Origin: an uncultured SAR86 cluster bacterium
GTDB lineage: Bacteria > Pseudomonadota > Gammaproteobacteria > Magnimaribacterales > D2472
Assembly (NCBI GenBank): GCA_902617045.1
Contig: CACMVA010000005.1
Coordinates: 1 to 64,000 of the forward strand
Length of the DNA: 64,000 bases
Direction of reading: 5' to 3'
Positions 43,439 to 51,101 of this stretch are shown here, piece after piece. The position numbers and the translations under genes are program-made. Within the stretch, counting starts at the first letter, position 1. Every line of letters begins with the position of its first letter. The notes beneath the pieces were generated by a model. That model saw only the letters and a program-made list of their open reading frames with translations. It made no database searches and was not told the DNA's origin.

Positions 43439-43460
43439 TATTTGAAACAATGCTAACAAT

Positions 43461-43484
43461 AAAAGGGTTCATTTGAACCCTTTT
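43461..43484. terminator. Bidirectional terminator between TonB receptor and tRNA-Arg
   Basis: AAAAGGGTTC-ATTT-GAACCCTTTT. Confidence 0.85.
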
Positions 43485-43488
43485 ATAC

Positions 43489-43565
43489 TGGCGCGCCCGG
43501 GAAGATTCGAACTCCCGACCCCTTGGTTCGAAGCCAAGTACTCTGTCCAACTGAGCTACAGGCGC
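43489..43565 (-). tRNA. tRNA-Arg (TCG anticodon)
   Basis: RC: GCGCCTGTAGCTCAGTTGGACAGAGTACTTGGCTTCGAACCAAGGGGTCGGGAGTTCGAATCTTCCCGGGCGCGCCA. Confidence 0.95.
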
Positions 43566-43682
43566 TAAGCTTGACATAGATTAATTCAATCTAACGAAAG
43601 TATCAAAATTTATCTAGATAAATATTGTAAGAAAATGACCCAAATCTTATAATTTATGCATCATTTTTCTTTGGGGGAATTA

Positions 43683-45830
43683 ATGAAACATATTAGAAAT
43701 GCACTTCTAACTATAATAGGTCTATATATATTAATTTTAGGTTTAGTCTATGTTGATGTATATGATAGTAGGCCAATAATCAGTTTATTTAAAAATATAC
43801 AATCTGATTCTGCTCTTGAGATTGTTGATTTTTCTATAGAGAAAAAAGTTAGCTCTAAAACTAAACCAAATCCTAATAAGGATAGGAATCCTTATTATGG
43901 AGATTTACATGTACACACAAAATATTCTTTTGATGCCTATGTATTTGGTGTAACAGCATCACCAGATGATGCATATAGATATGCTAAAGGAGAGGGCGTT
44001 AAACATCCTCTTGGTTATGAAATGAAGCTTAGAGAGCCATTAGATTTCTATGCAGTGACAGATCACGGTTTTTATATGGGCATGATTCAGGCATATGCTG
44101 ATACTACAACAGATATCTCTCAAAATGTTTTTGCTGAGCCTTTTCATAATTTAAATAGATTAGATAATTTAACCGTTGAATCAGCGGGAGAAAGATCAAA
44201 TATTTTTAGTTCTGTTCTTGGTGCAACAATTATTCAACCATATCCAGATTGGCATCCAAAATTATTAAAAGCATATTTAACTAGAAATACTCAAGATGCT
44301 CTTCAATCATTTGATTATGATATACATAAATCTGCCTGGGCTGATGTTGCAAGATCAGCAAATGAGCATAACGATCCAGGGCATTTTACAACTTTTATTG
44401 GATATGAGTTTACAACCTCAACAGATATTGAAGGTGGAAATTTACATAGAAATGTTATCTTTAATTCGTCGAAAGCATCTATTAGGCCATGGACAAGAAT
44501 AGATTCTATTAATCCAGAAGATCTATGGACATGGCAGGATAAATTAAGAGATAAAGGTGTTGATACTATTGCAATACCTCATAATTCAAATGGTTCTAAT
44601 GGCCAAATGTTTGAAATGGAGTCATTTAAAGGTAATGCGCTTGATTTAGAGTATGCAAATAAGAGAATGAGAAATGAGCCAATAGTTGAGATCACGCAAG
44701 TAAAAGGGACTTCAGATACACATCCATTGTTATCACCAGATGATGAATGGGCTGATTTTGAAATTATGGATGTGAGAGTAGGAAGTCGACCTCCAACTTA
44801 TAGTAAACCTTCAGGATCATATGTAAGAGAAGCATACCTAAATGGCCTTACTTTAGAATTTACAAAACAAGGCAATCCTTATAAATTTGGTTTAATAGGC
44901 TCTACTGATACTCATGTTGTTGCAGCCTCACTTGATGAATCTAATTTTTGGTCAAAGGTAGGGCTTCTTGATGGTGATCCTGAAAATAGAGGCTCGGTTC
45001 CATTAAAAGAGGAGAATGTTGAAAGATTAGATGAATATATGAGAGCTTTTAATCAACCTGTTAGTAGAGTAAGTTTAGAACAGGGAGAGTATGCAAATAC
45101 AGGTTTTACTCAATGGGGTGCTTCAGGATTAGCTGCTGTATGGGCTGAAGAAAATACAAGAGAATCAATTTTTAATGCATTTAGAAGAAAAGAAACTTTT
45201 GCAACAACTGGAACAAGAATAGCTGTAAGATTTTTTGGTGGATATAATCTTTCATCAATTGATTTAAATTCAGAATACCTTGTTAGTCAGGCCTATCAAA
45301 AAGGTGTAACTATGGGTTCTGATCTATTACACAATGAAAATAAAATTCCAGAATTTCTCGTATGGGCGCAAAGGGATAAAAATGGAGCTCCACTCCAAAG
45401 AATCCAAATTATAAAAGGTTGGATTGATAATAATAGTGGAAGACCAAAAGAAAAGGTTTATGATGTGGCGTGTTCTGATGGAATGCAGCCTGATCCAGCA
45501 ACTAATAGATGTCCAGACAATGGAGCTCGAGTAAATATTAACGATTGCTCAATTAGTACAAATGTTGGCTCATCTGAGTTAAAAACTGTTTGGAAAGATC
45601 CAGAATTTGCTCCTGATGATAAAACTTTTTATTACGTACGTGTACTAGAAAATCCAACATGCAGATGGAGTACATGGGATGCAATTAAAGCAGGGTATAA
45701 ACCTAGAGAAGGTTTACATGAAACAATACAAGAAAGGGCTTGGTCTTCACCAATATGGTATATTCCAGAACAGTCTGATGTTGAAGTGGTTCCACTTGGA
45801 GGAACAATTCAATTAAGGAATATTGACTAG
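43683..45830 (+). CDS. DUF3604 protein (PHP-like, membrane-anchored)
   Basis: N-terminal TM; YYGDLHVHTKYSFDAYVFG, DFYAVTDHG, HFTTFIGYEFT, IPHNSNGSNGQMF, GSTDTHVV. Confidence 0.9.
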   Translation: MKHIRNALLTIIGLYILILGLVYVDVYDSRPIISLFKNIQSDSALEIVDFSIEKKVSSKTKPNPNKDRNPYYGDLHVHTKYSFDAYVFGVTASPDDAYRYAKGEGVKHPLGYEMKLREPLDFYAVTDHGFYMGMIQAYADTTTDISQNVFAEPFHNLNRLDNLTVESAGERSNIFSSVLGATIIQPYPDWHPKLLKAYLTRNTQDALQSFDYDIHKSAWADVARSANEHNDPGHFTTFIGYEFTTSTDIEGGNLHRNVIFNSSKASIRPWTRIDSINPEDLWTWQDKLRDKGVDTIAIPHNSNGSNGQMFEMESFKGNALDLEYANKRMRNEPIVEITQVKGTSDTHPLLSPDDEWADFEIMDVRVGSRPPTYSKPSGSYVREAYLNGLTLEFTKQGNPYKFGLIGSTDTHVVAASLDESNFWSKVGLLDGDPENRGSVPLKEENVERLDEYMRAFNQPVSRVSLEQGEYANTGFTQWGASGLAAVWAEENTRESIFNAFRRKETFATTGTRIAVRFFGGYNLSSIDLNSEYLVSQAYQKGVTMGSDLLHNENKIPEFLVWAQRDKNGAPLQRIQIIKGWIDNNSGRPKEKVYDVACSDGMQPDPATNRCPDNGARVNINDCSISTNVGSSELKTVWKDPEFAPDDKTFYYVRVLENPTCRWSTWDAIKAGYKPREGLHETIQERAWSSPIWYIPEQSDVEVVPLGGTIQLRNID

Positions 45831-45850
45831 ATTTATTCTATTAAATCAAA

Positions 45851-46645
45851 TTGAAGTATAAATTATCTATATTTTTTATTATTGGATTAACTTTATATCT
45901 TATTGATATAGGGTTAAATTCTTACGATGAAAAAGAAATATATATAAGTGATCAAGAGATTATAAGTCTAGTAACTGCATGGAAATCTCAAGTTGGCAGA
46001 AATCCAAATGACGATGAAATAGCTCGTATTATAAATAATCTTGTAGAAGAAGAAATCTTGTATAGAGAAGCTCTAAAGTTAGGTTTAGACAGAGAAGATC
46101 GAATCATTAAAAGGAGGCTAGCTCAAAAAATATCTTTTTTAAAGCAAGAATCAGTACCAGATTCACCTTCAAATGATGATTTAATTAAATACTTCAATGA
46201 TAATAATGACAAATATTTTATTGATTCTAAATATACTTTTAGTCACTATTTTTTTTCATCTGAAAATAATTCTATAGAAAGATCATCACAAGCTTTTAAA
46301 GATTTATCTAATAGGATTCCTATTAATTCTGATCCTTTTTTCTTAGGCAAGAATTTTGCTGACGTTAGTATAAAAAAAATTAAAAGTGAATTTGGTAAAG
46401 ATTTTAGTTCACACTTTATAAATGTTGAACTTAATAAATGGATTGGTCCAATAGAGTCACCATTTGGTCACCATATCATATATGTAACAAATTATACTGA
46501 AGGTTATCTTCCAAATATTACAGATGTTTTAAAACAAGTTGAGGTTGATTTTTTGCAGAATAAAAGGGACGAGGCAATTGAGAACTATTTAAATCAAATA
46601 AGATCTGAATATAAAATTTATATAAATCCAGATTTACAAATTTAA
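45851..46645 (+). CDS. Peptidyl-prolyl cis-trans isomerase, parvulin-like
   Basis: DEIARIINNLVEEEILYREALKLGLDREDRIIKRRLAQKI; C-terminal PIESPFGHHIIYVT; apparent TTG start. Confidence 0.8.
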   Translation: MKYKLSIFFIIGLTLYLIDIGLNSYDEKEIYISDQEIISLVTAWKSQVGRNPNDDEIARIINNLVEEEILYREALKLGLDREDRIIKRRLAQKISFLKQESVPDSPSNDDLIKYFNDNNDKYFIDSKYTFSHYFFSSENNSIERSSQAFKDLSNRIPINSDPFFLGKNFADVSIKKIKSEFGKDFSSHFINVELNKWIGPIESPFGHHIIYVTNYTEGYLPNITDVLKQVEVDFLQNKRDEAIENYLNQIRSEYKIYINPDLQI

Positions 46646-47592
46646 TGAAAAGTTTTCTTTTTGCTTTATTTTTTTTAGGATCATTAGATATAAATTCTCA
46701 TGAATTTAATCCAGCTCATCTAGTTATAAAGCAATTAAATGATGATCTTTCATATGAAGCTGTATGGATGTATCCATATAAAAATATTGGCAAAAGAGCT
46801 GAAGTAATTTTCCCTGATAAATGTTCAGCTGAATCAAATGATCTTTTTTACCAAGGAAAATATATAAATGAGATCATATTTTTGGACTGTTTGTCGACTC
46901 TAAAGGGATCGTCAATCGAAATTATTAATCTTAGTGTATTAACAGATGCTTTAATAACAATAAACTTTAATGATGATACATTTCAGGGACTTGTAAATGT
47001 TCAAAATAATGTTCTAAATATTCCCTTAGAGAGTAATTATTATCCTTCCTCCTATTTACAGCTAGGTTTTTCTCATTTGTTTGATGGTTTAGATCATATT
47101 TTATTTATTTTTGGATTACTTTTTTGTATATCTGGATTTATAAATATAATTAAGACTATTACAGCTTTTACAATAGCACACAGTATTACACTTGGATTAA
47201 CAGTTTTTGAACTAATATCGTTACCCCAAGGAACCATTGAGGCTTTGATTGCATTAACTATTGTATATTTAGCAACTGAGATAAATCGAAATAAAGGATC
47301 AGTAAAAACACCTTGGATAATGGCATTTGGTTTTGGTTTGCTTCATGGTCTAGGCTTTGCTGGAGCTTTAATGGATATTGGTATAGCAAACAACAATATG
47401 CTTTTGTCGTTATTCTTTTTTAATGTTGGTATAGAGATTGCTCAAATAGCTTTAATACCAATACCCTTAATAATTTTATTAATATCAAATAAGTTTAATA
47501 TCACTGAAATTACTAAAATCATTGTAAGTTTATGTATTGGTGGAATGGGTTTCTATTGGTTTATAGACCGTGTAATTGGTATTATTCTTTAA
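46645..47592 (+). CDS. HupE/UreJ family membrane protein
   Basis: LGFSHLFDGLDHILFIFGLL, FTIAHSITLGLTV, FGFGLLHGLGFAGAL. Confidence 0.92.
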   Translation: MKSFLFALFFLGSLDINSHEFNPAHLVIKQLNDDLSYEAVWMYPYKNIGKRAEVIFPDKCSAESNDLFYQGKYINEIIFLDCLSTLKGSSIEIINLSVLTDALITINFNDDTFQGLVNVQNNVLNIPLESNYYPSSYLQLGFSHLFDGLDHILFIFGLLFCISGFINIIKTITAFTIAHSITLGLTVFELISLPQGTIEALIALTIVYLATEINRNKGSVKTPWIMAFGFGLLHGLGFAGALMDIGIANNNMLLSLFFFNVGIEIAQIALIPIPLIILLISNKFNITEITKIIVSLCIGGMGFYWFIDRVIGIIL

Positions 47593-47608
47593 ATAATTTT
47601 ATATATAT

Positions 47609-48799
47609 ATGTTTTTTTCCAATAAAAATGTTCTTATCGGAGTGACTGGCGGCATTGCAGCTTATAAGTCTGCAGAAATTATTCGTCTTTTTAAAAAAGA
47701 CGGAGCTGATGTAAGAGTCGTTATGACTGAATCAGCTAAAGAATTTATAACCCCTTTAACTCTTCAAGCAATCTCAGGAAATGAGATACACGATTCTTTG
47801 CTTGATGCTAGAGCTGAGTCAGCTATGGGCCATATTGAATTAGCAAAGTGGGCTGACATAATATTGATAGCACCATGCACCGCAGAGACAATCTCAAAAA
47901 TTACTCATGGTAGAGCCGATGATTTAATTGGAGCAATACTTCTTGCTTCAAAAGCAAATAAATATATTGCCCCAGCAATGAATATGAATATGTGGACAGA
48001 TGAAAGTACTCAGGATAACTACAATACTCTACTAAAAAGAGATTTATCTTTTATTGGTCCTGGGATAGGTGAGCAAGCATGTGGAGATATAGGGCCTGGC
48101 AGAATGGAAGAACCTGACAAAATCATAGACTTCATAAAAAGTACATTTAAGTCTGGGCCTCTTTCTGGCAAGAATATAACAATAACAGCAGGTCCAACAA
48201 GAGAACAAATAGATCCAGTTAGATTTATTTCAAATAATAGTTCTGGAAAAATGGGATATGCATTAGCTGACGCAGCTATTGAAGCAGGAGCATTTGTAAA
48301 CTTAGTTAGTGGACCAGTATCAATAAAAGCAAATAAACATGCTAATTTAATAAAAGTTAATTCAGCTAAAGAAATGTTAGATAAAGTTGTTAAATCTATG
48401 AATGATTCAGATATTTTTATTGGATGTGCTGCTGTTTCAGATTTTAGACCATCTGGTTACTCAGATAGAAAAATTAAAAAAGAGGACATAAAAAATATTG
48501 ATATACACCTTAAAAAAAATGAAGATATTTTGAGCTACGTTGCCTCAAACTATCCTGAAGCATTCGTTATAGGATTTGCTGCTGAAACTGCTGATGTTAA
48601 TACAAATGCAAAGAAAAAACTTAAATCAAAGAATTTAAATATGATTATTTCAAATGATGTCTCGGATAAATCAATTGGTTTTGATGTTGATCATAACGAG
48701 GTAAATGTAATTACAAATAAAGAAACAATTTTTCTTAAAAAGGATAAAAAGATTAGAATAGCAAGAGAGATTTTTAAAATAATAGCTTCAAATATTTAA
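47609..48799 (+). CDS. coaBC: Bifunctional phosphopantothenoylcysteine decarboxylase / phosphopantothenate-cysteine ligase
   Basis: VLIGVTGGIAAYKSAEIIR, APAMNMNMW, ITAGPTREQIDPVRFISNNSSGKMGYALA. Confidence 0.96.
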   Translation: MFFSNKNVLIGVTGGIAAYKSAEIIRLFKKDGADVRVVMTESAKEFITPLTLQAISGNEIHDSLLDARAESAMGHIELAKWADIILIAPCTAETISKITHGRADDLIGAILLASKANKYIAPAMNMNMWTDESTQDNYNTLLKRDLSFIGPGIGEQACGDIGPGRMEEPDKIIDFIKSTFKSGPLSGKNITITAGPTREQIDPVRFISNNSSGKMGYALADAAIEAGAFVNLVSGPVSIKANKHANLIKVNSAKEMLDKVVKSMNDSDIFIGCAAVSDFRPSGYSDRKIKKEDIKNIDIHLKKNEDILSYVASNYPEAFVIGFAAETADVNTNAKKKLKSKNLNMIISNDVSDKSIGFDVDHNEVNVITNKETIFLKKDKKIRIAREIFKIIASNI

Positions 48800-48807
48800 T
48801 TTTCATT

Positions 48808-49623
48808 ATGTCAAGTAAGTCAGATTACAAATTAGTTACTTTAGATACTTTAAATAGATATAAAGAGAAAAATGAGAAATTTACATGTTTAACAGCCTAC
48901 GAATCAACAATGGCATCTGTTATTAGTAAAGCTGGTGTAGATATTATTTTAGTTGGTGATAGCTTAGGTATGGTAGTTCAGGGCCACGATAGCACTCTGC
49001 CTGTAACCATGGATCAGCTCGTTTACCACCTTGAGTGTGTTGTTAATGGCAATAACGGATCTCATATAATGGCTGATATGCCTTTTATGAGCTATGCAAC
49101 TGATGATCTCGGATTGGAAAATGCAAAAAGATTAATGCAAGCTGGTGCTAACTCAGTAAAGATTGAGGGTGGTGAATGGATTTCAAAAATGGCTAAAGCA
49201 CTTTCTGATAGAGGAATACCCGTTTGTGCTCATATGGGACTTACACCTCAAACAATTAACAGATTAGGAGGTCATAGAGTTCAAGGCAGAGACCCATCTC
49301 AGAAAGAAAAAATTATCAATGAAGCAATGTCACTTGAAAAAGCAGGCGCAGCCATGCTTTTGTTGGAGTGCGTTCCTGATGAGTTAGCTAAAGAAGTAAC
49401 TAAAGAATTAAAAATCCCAGTAATTGGTATAGGTGCTGGCGTTCATACCGATGGTCAAATTATGGTTGTTCATGACATGTTAGGAATATCATGTCTAGAT
49501 AACCCTCCCAAATTTGTAAAAAACTTTATGGAAGAATCCTCATCAATTAAAAATGCTATAGAGAACTATGTAAAAGAGGTTAAAAATCTTAAATTTCCAT
49601 CAGATGAATATACATTTAAATAA
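48808..49623 (+). CDS. panB: 3-methyl-2-oxobutanoate hydroxymethyltransferase
   Basis: LTAYESTMASVISKAGVDIILVGDSLGMVVQGHDSTLPVTMD. Confidence 0.97.
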   Translation: MSSKSDYKLVTLDTLNRYKEKNEKFTCLTAYESTMASVISKAGVDIILVGDSLGMVVQGHDSTLPVTMDQLVYHLECVVNGNNGSHIMADMPFMSYATDDLGLENAKRLMQAGANSVKIEGGEWISKMAKALSDRGIPVCAHMGLTPQTINRLGGHRVQGRDPSQKEKIINEAMSLEKAGAAMLLLECVPDELAKEVTKELKIPVIGIGAGVHTDGQIMVVHDMLGISCLDNPPKFVKNFMEESSSIKNAIENYVKEVKNLKFPSDEYTFK

Positions 49624-49625
49624 GA

Positions 49626-50444
49626 TTGAAAATTTATAACTCCATTTCAGAATTTACAAATATAAAAGATAACCTAACTGAACTAACTTTTGTACCAACA
49701 ATGGGAAACCTCCATCAAGGACATATCTCCCTGATAAATCTTGCAAAACAATATGAAAATGAAATTATTTCATCTATTTTTATAAATAGACTTCAATTTA
49801 ATGATAAAAATGATTATGAAAAATATCCTAAATCACTTGAAAGTGATATTGAGTTATTAGAAAAGAATGGTTGTGATCATCTTCTTATTCCTGATGAATC
49901 AATATTAGACGATATAAAATTAATAAAAGCTCCTTCAAAATCAAAAAAACTATGTGGAAAAAATAGACCAGGCCATTTTGATGGTGTTTTAACAATATTA
50001 AATAGATTTTTTAAATTAATTAATCCAAAAATATCAATATTTGGAAAGAAAGACTACCAGCAATTTTTGTTAGTTAAGGAATTTGTCATTAAAAATTACT
50101 CAAATATTAAAATTATTGGTGGTGATACAATAAGAGAAGATTCTGGACTAGCCTTATCTTCAAGAAATAACCTTTTATCAGAAAAGGAAAAAAATATTGC
50201 GTCATCTATATACAAAGTTCTGTGTGATATTAAGTCGTCTAAAAATTTATTAAATACAGAACTGTTGGATAATAAAAAAAAATATTTAACAAAATTAGGG
50301 TTTGAGGTTGATTATTTAACCATATGTGATGCTTCAACTCTTGAAGACAGTTTTTCAATTGATACAAACGATCTATTAGTTGCTGTTGCAGCAAAACTTG
50401 GTGAAGTAAGGTTAATAGATAATATTTTATTAACAAAACTTTAA
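49626..50444 (+). CDS. panC: Pantothenate synthetase
   Basis: FVPTMGNLHQGHISLINLAK, FGKKDYQQF, REDSGLALSSRN. Confidence 0.96.
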   Translation: MKIYNSISEFTNIKDNLTELTFVPTMGNLHQGHISLINLAKQYENEIISSIFINRLQFNDKNDYEKYPKSLESDIELLEKNGCDHLLIPDESILDDIKLIKAPSKSKKLCGKNRPGHFDGVLTILNRFFKLINPKISIFGKKDYQQFLLVKEFVIKNYSNIKIIGGDTIREDSGLALSSRNNLLSEKEKNIASSIYKVLCDIKSSKNLLNTELLDNKKKYLTKLGFEVDYLTICDASTLEDSFSIDTNDLLVAVAAKLGEVRLIDNILLTKL

Positions 50445-50477
50445 TAATTTTTAATATTTCACTATACTTTCGTCCCT

Positions 50478-50867
50478 ATGAATAAAACATTACTAAAATC
50501 TAAACTTCATCGAATTAATGTCACACAAGTTGAGCTTGACTATGAAGGTTCATGTGCTGTCGATAGAGATTTCTTAAAATTAGCCGGTATGCAGGAATAC
50601 GAAAAAGTTGATGTTTACAATGTTACTAATGGTGAGAGATTTTCAACATACTTAATCTTAGCTGAAGCAGGATCAAAAACGTTATCTATAAATGGTGCAG
50701 CAGCCCACAAAGTTTCTATTGATGATGTTGTAATTATATGCACATATGGTTCATATGATGAGACAGAAGCCAAGACTCATATTCCAACATTAGTATATTT
50801 CGACAAAAGTAATAATGTGACAAAAGTGAAAAACACTATACCCGAGCAAAAACTTAAATCAGTTTAA
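50478..50867 (+). CDS. panD: Aspartate 1-decarboxylase
   Basis: LLKSKLHRINVTQVELDYEGSCAVDRDFL with Gly-Ser processing site; NGAAAHK. Confidence 0.97.
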   Translation: MNKTLLKSKLHRINVTQVELDYEGSCAVDRDFLKLAGMQEYEKVDVYNVTNGERFSTYLILAEAGSKTLSINGAAAHKVSIDDVVIICTYGSYDETEAKTHIPTLVYFDKSNNVTKVKNTIPEQKLKSV

Positions 50868-50868
50868 T

Positions 50869-50979
50869 CTAAAAGATAAAATAGGTATCGCCAATAAAGA
50901 AACCGCAAAAGAAAAAAGCAAGTGCCCATAGGGGTTCGTTTTTACAGAAATCAATTAACTTTTCAATGTAATCGTTCAT
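50869..50979 (-). CDS. Unannotated 36-aa putative single-pass membrane peptide
   Basis: RC reads MNDYIEKLIDFCKNEPLWALAFFFCGFFIGDTYFIF*; fills the gap between panD and tRNA-Arg. Confidence 0.55.
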   Translation of the reverse strand: MNDYIEKLIDFCKNEPLWALAFFFCGFFIGDTYFIF

Positions 50980-51023
50980 AGCTATTGTTATGCAATTTAC
51001 ATACCAATACACTTACAGACGAT

Positions 51024-51101
51024 TGGCGCGCCCGGAGAGATTCGAACTCCCGACCTCTTGGTTCGTAGCCAAGCACTCTAATCCAACTGAGCTACGGGCG
51101 C
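51024..51101 (-). tRNA. tRNA-Arg (ACG anticodon)
   Basis: RC: GCGCCCGTAGCTCAGTTGGATTAGAGTGCTTGGCTACGAACCAAGAGGTCGGGAGTTCGAATCTCTCCGGGCGCGCCA. Confidence 0.95.

Follow-up and report, generated by a model that had tools for sequence, protein, structure and literature searches.

A DUF3604, parvulin and HupE/UreJ-2 gene trio recurring across bacterial phyla, and its tentative role in the maturation of periplasmic hydrolases

A three-gene module conserved across bacteria

The 64,000-nucleotide stretch of DNA analyzed here (the window; contig CACMVA010000005.1 of assembly GCA_902617045.1, positions 1 to 64,000) derives from an uncultured SAR86 cluster bacterium, whose genome assembly comprises 1.155 Mb in 21 contigs and is 87.5% complete. 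Downstream of a TonB-receptor gene, it contains three genes on the plus strand which code for a DUF3604 protein, a parvulin-type peptidyl-prolyl isomerase (PPIase) and a membrane protein of the HupE/UreJ-2 type. The association of these three families is far beyond chance, and their status as a conserved three-gene module is well supported; what is new is this association and the role proposed for it, the component families being already known. The trio probably makes one working metalloenzyme at the cell surface. In the reading which we tentatively favor, and to which we give not quite an even chance, the parvulin and the HupE protein together see to the folding and metallation of DUF3604 enzymes in the periplasm, with several paralogs sharing one pair. 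The genes are:

43683-45830, plus strand: DUF3604 gene (PF12228), start assigned from conservation and a Shine-Dalgarno sequence
45851-46645, plus strand: parvulin gene with TTG start (Rotamase_2; family alignment A5)
46645-47592, plus strand: HupE/UreJ-2 gene (PF13795)

An initial annotation made from the sequence alone had described three tightly spaced, co-directional genes. All three open reading frames (ORFs) are present, with the corresponding Pfam matches, and the spacing is indeed tight: 20 nt separate the DUF3604 and parvulin genes, and the parvulin and HupE genes overlap by one base (TAATG). The DUF3604 start at 43683 had also been placed correctly, as a GGGGGA Shine-Dalgarno sequence and an M-K start are kept in the congeners examined, whereas the start of the longer ORF at 43656 is not conserved. 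The TTG start of the parvulin gene is found at the same position in the congeners examined.

Well outside this lineage, too, the three families occur together, as a rule side by side and in the same orientation, which bears out the supposition of the initial annotation that they form a module. A named scan yielded 80 loci, spread over many phyla. Carriers of the trio include other Gammaproteobacteria, rhizobia, Desulfobacterota, Verrucomicrobiota, Bacteroidota and one cyanobacterium, with examples in Xanthomarina (L094), Haloferula (L103), metagenome-assembled genomes (MAGs) of Desulfobacterota (L093, L112, L142), a Nitrospirales MAG (L106), the cyanobacterium Microseira (L128), and plasmids of Rhizobium and Rhodobacter. 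Among 275 genomes of the class, DUF3604 matches were found in 25 and HupE_UreJ_2 matches in 78, and full-length DUF3604 genes, where present, commonly adjoin HupE. Parvulin orthologs, defined in the class by a model A5 score of at least about 80 bits, occupy 16 places in 15 genomes; by our own count, 14 of the 16 adjoin HupE. When 101 loci were examined, 51 parvulins had a HupE gene in the same locus, 50 of them on the same strand and 50 in the order parvulin-HupE. In most of these pairs the gene ends touch or overlap; DUF3604 lies on either side of the pair, usually at a distance of ≤150 nt.

In the order of the window's host (streamlined, SAR86-like and probably marine bacteria), DUF3604 is present in 21 of 22 genera. 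Of 199 genomes, which are related and thus do not represent independent events, 164 contain DUF3604, 158 HupE, and 149 the parvulin; our own tally gives 157 with both DUF3604 and HupE, seven with DUF3604 only, one with HupE only, and 34 with neither. The 149 parvulin-containing genomes include 147 with HupE and 148 with DUF3604. The parvulin genome without DUF3604 is G425, in which the parvulin is located at the contig edge (base 9).

A diverged version of the partnership exists as well. DUF3604 relatives of 695-782 amino acids, scoring 50-80 bits with a model built for this analysis, are widespread in the order, with several copies per genome. In two loci (L163, 10439-12408; L164, 7524-9585), a diverged parvulin and a diverged HupE protein (377-438 amino acids) are encoded divergently from a DUF3604 relative of about 750 amino acids, and diverged parvulin and HupE genes are also adjacent in family f172 genomes; such neighbors are seen in G297 (C31), G384 (C8) and G281 (C5). 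That two diverged families keep the same partnership speaks for a functional link. The diverged DUF3604 relatives (L149, L150, L154-L158, L161-L165) are situated at conserved housekeeping positions, for example beside an adenylosuccinate-synthetase-like gene.

The trio is not described in the open literature searched, subscription papers lying outside the search. The same literature contains one incidental mention of DUF3604 in full text, none of PF12228 or IPR022028, and no functional paper on the family. Chlamydia trachomatis CT_425 has been listed as a DUF3604-domain protein (PMC11925237).

The DUF3604 protein as a predicted PHP-type hydrolase

The window protein matches PF12228 over profile positions 2-591 of 591 with 751 bits (cut-off, 20.4). 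Its AF2 model (pTM 0.83) comprises an anchor helix (6-35), a mixed alpha/beta domain with an embedded insertion of low confidence, and a C-terminal beta-sandwich. Foldseek places 3e38, a PHP-like phosphoesterase of two domains, first among PDB entries (E 3.7e-4, probability 1.00). The global TM scores are low (0.26/0.49), which is ascribed to the insertion in DUF3604; because of these low values, the assignment also leans on nine ligand positions that are invariant in 50 sequences, namely H85, H87, D93, H137, E251, H264, H309, D418 and H420 (counted from 43656, and mapped to PHP enzymes by the textbook motif rather than by superposed coordinates). These positions give the PHP ligand pattern (HxH, Asp/His, Glu, His, His and DxH). 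Together, sequence and a model with a PHP-type (beta/alpha) barrel assign DUF3604 to the PHP superfamily of hydrolases, as a presumed metal-dependent hydrolase of esters. The initial description of a membrane-anchored protein with PHP-like motifs is accurate. Several DUF3604 relatives have lipoprotein-like or ordinary signal peptides, and DUF3604 is presumably periplasmic.

With 3e38 (BVU_3505) and CehA/McbA, the DUF3604 protein shares the PHP-type ligand pattern and the two-domain layout of PHP domain plus beta-sandwich, but it is about twice as long, contains the large insertion, and is only about 10% identical. It scored below the cut-off of the CehA/McbA NCBIfam model NF038032 (12.6 vs 80 bits; E 0.069), and searches of PDB sequences with the single sequence and with a profile gave no meaningful match. 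The open literature searched contains no text joining CehA with "PHP domain".

The genomic surroundings of DUF3604 genes vary. Paralogs of the order are found beside genes for DSBA-like fusion proteins, cytochrome P450 and acyl-CoA dehydrogenase (L151, 11654-13027; L153, 10815-12158; L168, 10471-11766; L152, 10092-11342). Sulfatase-family genes lie ≤4 genes from DUF3604 in 14 of 101 loci (L052, L053, L062, L073, L092, L094, L122, L125, L145 and others); in the order, they occur near DUF3604 copies, as at L155 (18564-19901) and L159 (1111-2760), and are seen near copies in G277 and G310. AraC regulators recur in 10 DUF3604 loci. Two DUF3604 copies of G364 (C1:688801-690599 and 333077-334906) contain many in-frame stops or frame breaks and are apparently decaying paralogs.

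The parvulin

The parvulin consists of an N-terminal membrane anchor, a helical SurA-like segment and a rotamase domain, which matches Rotamase_2 (PF13145) with 38 bits (cut-off, 27); at E values up to 1, the same model was matched by 27 of 27 family members. The window protein keeps both catalytic histidines, His132 and His208. In the family, the C-terminal one is present in 27/27 members, while at the position of the first, 10/27 have His and 17/27 have Gln. As the first catalytic His is replaced in the majority, the sequences suggest that most members do chaperone work rather than fast isomerization. Against the initial assignment as a PPIase, members of the family probably work more as chaperones than as isomerases.

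The HupE/UreJ-2 protein and the question of nickel

The third protein of the trio matches HupE_UreJ_2 (PF13795) with 145 bits (cut-off, 24.5) and reaches 22.7 bits with PF04955, just under the cut-off of 23. No match to the TerC family was found; HupE and TerC presumably belong to one transporter clan. The protein is organized into a signal peptide, a periplasmic beta-sandwich, and eight transmembrane helices with HxxxGxDH, AHS and LLHG motifs, and its model (pTM 0.79) shows the beta domain and the eight helices. His19 (codon 46699-46701) directly follows the signal-peptide-like segment, at the start of the periplasmic domain; at this presumed cleavage site, 35 of 43 trio homologs have His and the other eight have Asp. 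The fold of the N-terminal domain resembles those of the zinc-binding proteins ZrgA and PA4063 and, weakly, that of Ang-1 (9gce: E 0.14, probability 0.89, TM-target 0.34), ZrgA and PA4063 scoring better. A profile search of PDB sequences gave no meaningful match, and none to 9gce; the single-sequence search matched only designed leucine-rich-repeat proteins, which were rejected as spurious.

Ang-1 (PDB 9GCE; Franco Cairo et al. 2025, PMC12537917) shares with the window protein the PF13795 transmembrane domain, a signal peptide followed by an N-terminal His, and a periplasmic beta-sandwich. Its N-terminal domain binds copper at 73-74 nM and nickel at 220 nM and has been proposed to feed the permease (PMC12537917). 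The closest structural match of Ang-1 reported in that study is likewise ZrgA (8f1b). However, the domain of the window protein comprises about 118 residues, compared to about 176 in Ang-1, and the text on Ang-1 mentions neither DUF3604 nor a parvulin.

A related transmembrane domain is found in the nickel transporters of the HupE/UreJ family (PF04955), such as HupE of Rhizobium leguminosarum. In contrast to these, the window protein has an additional periplasmic domain beginning with His and is encoded beside other genes, and the order offers it neither urease nor hydrogenase as a client. Nickel import for these enzymes is unlikely in the order and was rejected for it: NiFe hydrogenase was detected in 0 of 101 genomes, and urease gave no convincing match in the same genomes, the domain matches being partial and near or below the cut-off, with none in the host genome. 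Nickel superoxide dismutase (Ni-SOD) is present in 17 of the 101 genomes, though not in that of the window, which is 87.5% complete. Uptake of nickel or cobalt, with which the initial annotation linked characterized HupE/UreJ proteins, lacks known nickel client enzymes here. Two additional classical HupE/UreJ (PF04955) genes follow the trio on a Rhizobium plasmid (L067, 13160-14370) and in Desulfobacterota MAGs (L093; L112, 10767-12001).

A possible maturation cassette for DUF3604 enzymes

The parvulin-HupE pair is seen here as an accessory unit for DUF3604 enzymes mainly because one pair is present per several DUF3604 copies. G277, G310 and G275 each contain three to four classical DUF3604 genes and one classical parvulin; in G277 the pair is separated from some of the DUF3604 genes, and in G239 pair and DUF3604 are located on different contigs. 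For Rhodobacteraceae EL53, the three loci fetched together contain five DUF3604 genes, with a single parvulin-HupE pair. Copy numbers such as these, the conserved trio and its pairing, the conserved ligands and the predicted folds form the observed base of the maturation model; the periplasmic location, the functional dependence, the direction of metal flow, and the identity of metal and substrate are inferred. In this model, DUF3604 would be a Sec-exported PHP-family hydrolase, anchored in the inner membrane or by a lipid and dependent on about three metal ions. Its foldase or holdase would be the parvulin, held by its anchor on the periplasmic side. The transmembrane part of HupE would move the metal ion, and the periplasmic domain with its N-terminal His might capture the ion or pass it to the folding enzyme. 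A single pair would serve the several DUF3604 paralogs of a genome.

Folding and metallation are favored on the precedent of the TerC-family proteins MeeF and MeeY of Bacillus subtilis, which supply Sec-exported enzymes with metal and are co-purified with the parvulin PrsA (PMC10550928). Both systems combine a polytopic membrane metal protein with a membrane-anchored parvulin, and the clients are Sec-exported metalloenzymes. The Bacillus system differs in that it belongs to the TerC family (PF03741), handles manganese, has general clients and lacks a dedicated operon, and only the mode of action is compared. A bolder and more doubtful extension would see in the parvulin-HupE pair a dedicated, portable metallation-folding machine for periplasmic PHP-family enzymes, in which HupE works towards the periplasm and its His domain hands the ion to the client; such a machine would be a Gram-negative, operon-encoded counterpart of TerC/PrsA, existing in two diverged versions. 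The initial annotation had already suggested an envelope metal system with the PPIase maturing the DUF3604 protein, which, as an inference, is favored here too; its module has stood up, while its links to the TonB receptor and to nickel or cobalt uptake have not.

Several observations weigh against the maturation model. Characterized HupE proteins are described as importers, and the Ang domains are proposed to feed metal inwards (PMC12537917); no experiment on any of the trio proteins was found in the open literature. The distances of DUF3604 and HupE are correlated (Mantel r 0.72), which speaks for the model, but shared ancestry inflates this correlation. No parvulin-HupE pair lies near DUF3604 in 45 of the 101 loci. 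G259 (97% complete) contains the pair without a DUF3604 match, and G010 (97% complete) contains DUF3604 without the pair. Moreover, the adjacent coaBC gene is likewise absent from the seven congeners that were tested and have no trio, so that, within the genus, loss of the trio may be part of the loss of a larger block; coaBC is also missing from three trio-bearing congeners and from G322.

The chief remaining rival is the import of a metal other than nickel. An anglerase-type HupE would import copper, nickel, zinc or another ion captured at the N-terminal His, with DUF3604 hydrolyzing a periplasmic ligand or ester to free the ion and the parvulin folding both. The metal binding of Ang-1 and its proposed feeding of the permease (PMC12537917) speak for it, as do the N-terminal His of the window protein, the related fold, for which zinc-binding ZrgA and PA4063 are the nearest matches, and the further classical HupE/UreJ genes at L067, L093 and L112. 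Nevertheless, we regard metal acquisition as unlikely. HupE is present in about 80% of the genomes of the order, yet NiFe hydrogenase is absent, urease unconvincing, and Ni-SOD confined to 17/101; the Rfam matches near the trio are tRNAs only, with no described metal riboswitch; the TonB receptor is not conserved; and several DUF3604 copies per single HupE are left unexplained.

Scavenging of organic esters appears improbable. In this reading, small esters of phosphate, sulfate or carbamate would be hydrolyzed in the periplasm by DUF3604 together with sulfatases, and the cargo of HupE would be a product or counter-ion and not a cofactor metal. Phosphoesterases and carbamate hydrolases are both known among PHP enzymes, which suits such a role, although the CehA/McbA model reached only E 0.069. 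It is also consistent with the sulfatase genes near DUF3604 (14/101 loci, and near the copies in G277 and G310), the AraC regulators at 10 loci, and the P450, DSBA-like and acyl-CoA dehydrogenase genes beside paralogs of the order. However, the sulfatase count has no background rate and the neighbors of DUF3604 are variable; besides, metals are what HupE-family proteins carry, and their conserved transmembrane His/Asp motifs suit a metal, not an organic product.

That the trio merely comprises housekeeping neighbors without a shared function is hardly credible, for although it runs within 16 nt into coaBC-panB-panC, possibly as one longer unit, and synteny alone could keep such a block within a genus, the trio recurs in unrelated surroundings across many phyla and on rhizobial plasmids, with DUF3604 preceding or following the pair, which already refutes this reading.

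How exported metalloenzymes obtain the right metal is an open question, for which the trio is a widespread, compact and genetically tractable candidate. Because the genes for client, foldase and metal protein are neighbors, dependence is testable by single deletions. Moreover, the maturation model offers DUF3604 a functional context for the first time; in genomes of about 1.3 Mb, this family has been amplified to several copies.

Surroundings of the trio in the window

Three features precede the trio:

43459-43486, no strand assigned: bidirectional terminator-like hairpin, outside the trio, between the TonB-receptor gene and tRNA-Arg (RNA fold)
43489-43565, minus strand: tRNA-Arg(tcg), context only (ARAGORN; syntenic in L174-L181)
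43625-43653, plus strand: best promoter-like site of the region (TTGTAA-17-TATAAT, 10/12), just upstream of DUF3604

The hairpin, which a pattern scan had not flagged, comprises 12 bp (dG -15.7 kcal/mol, z -5.86 by RNA folding). The promoter-like site is a consensus match only, and such matches are no commoner in the region than in shuffled sequences. As a fixed landmark, the tRNA-Arg(tcg) gene lies upstream of the trio in congeners as well as in sister genera, but it is not part of the module.

Hairpin and tRNA gene set the upstream TonB receptor off from the trio, as had been noted initially. The receptor gene is present at the locus in the fetched congeners G334, G424, G294, G276 and G358, and as a neighbor of the module it is found at the genus level only. 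It is absent from the same locus in the sister genera G286 and G278, where EamA, rhodanese and tRNA-Arg genes are directly followed by the trio, and it is rare near the trio elsewhere; a role as part of the module was therefore ruled out.

Downstream, coaBC begins 16 nt after the HupE gene and is followed by panB-panC; a transcription unit longer than the trio, running into coaBC-panB-panC, is possible. Within 43489-51101, the trio together with coaBC-panB-panC-panD is flanked by two tRNA-Arg genes, and these landmarks are kept in congeners. In G358, coaBC is missing between the two conserved tRNA-Arg genes. The CoaBC protein (47609-48799) had no match at E≤0.001 in G282, G330, G388, G403, G405, G418 and G437, nor in G358, G385, G413, G322, G290, G425 and G426, some of the genomes without a match being >90% complete. 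This suggests that part of the group has lost phosphopantothenoylcysteine synthesis and depends on external CoA precursors.

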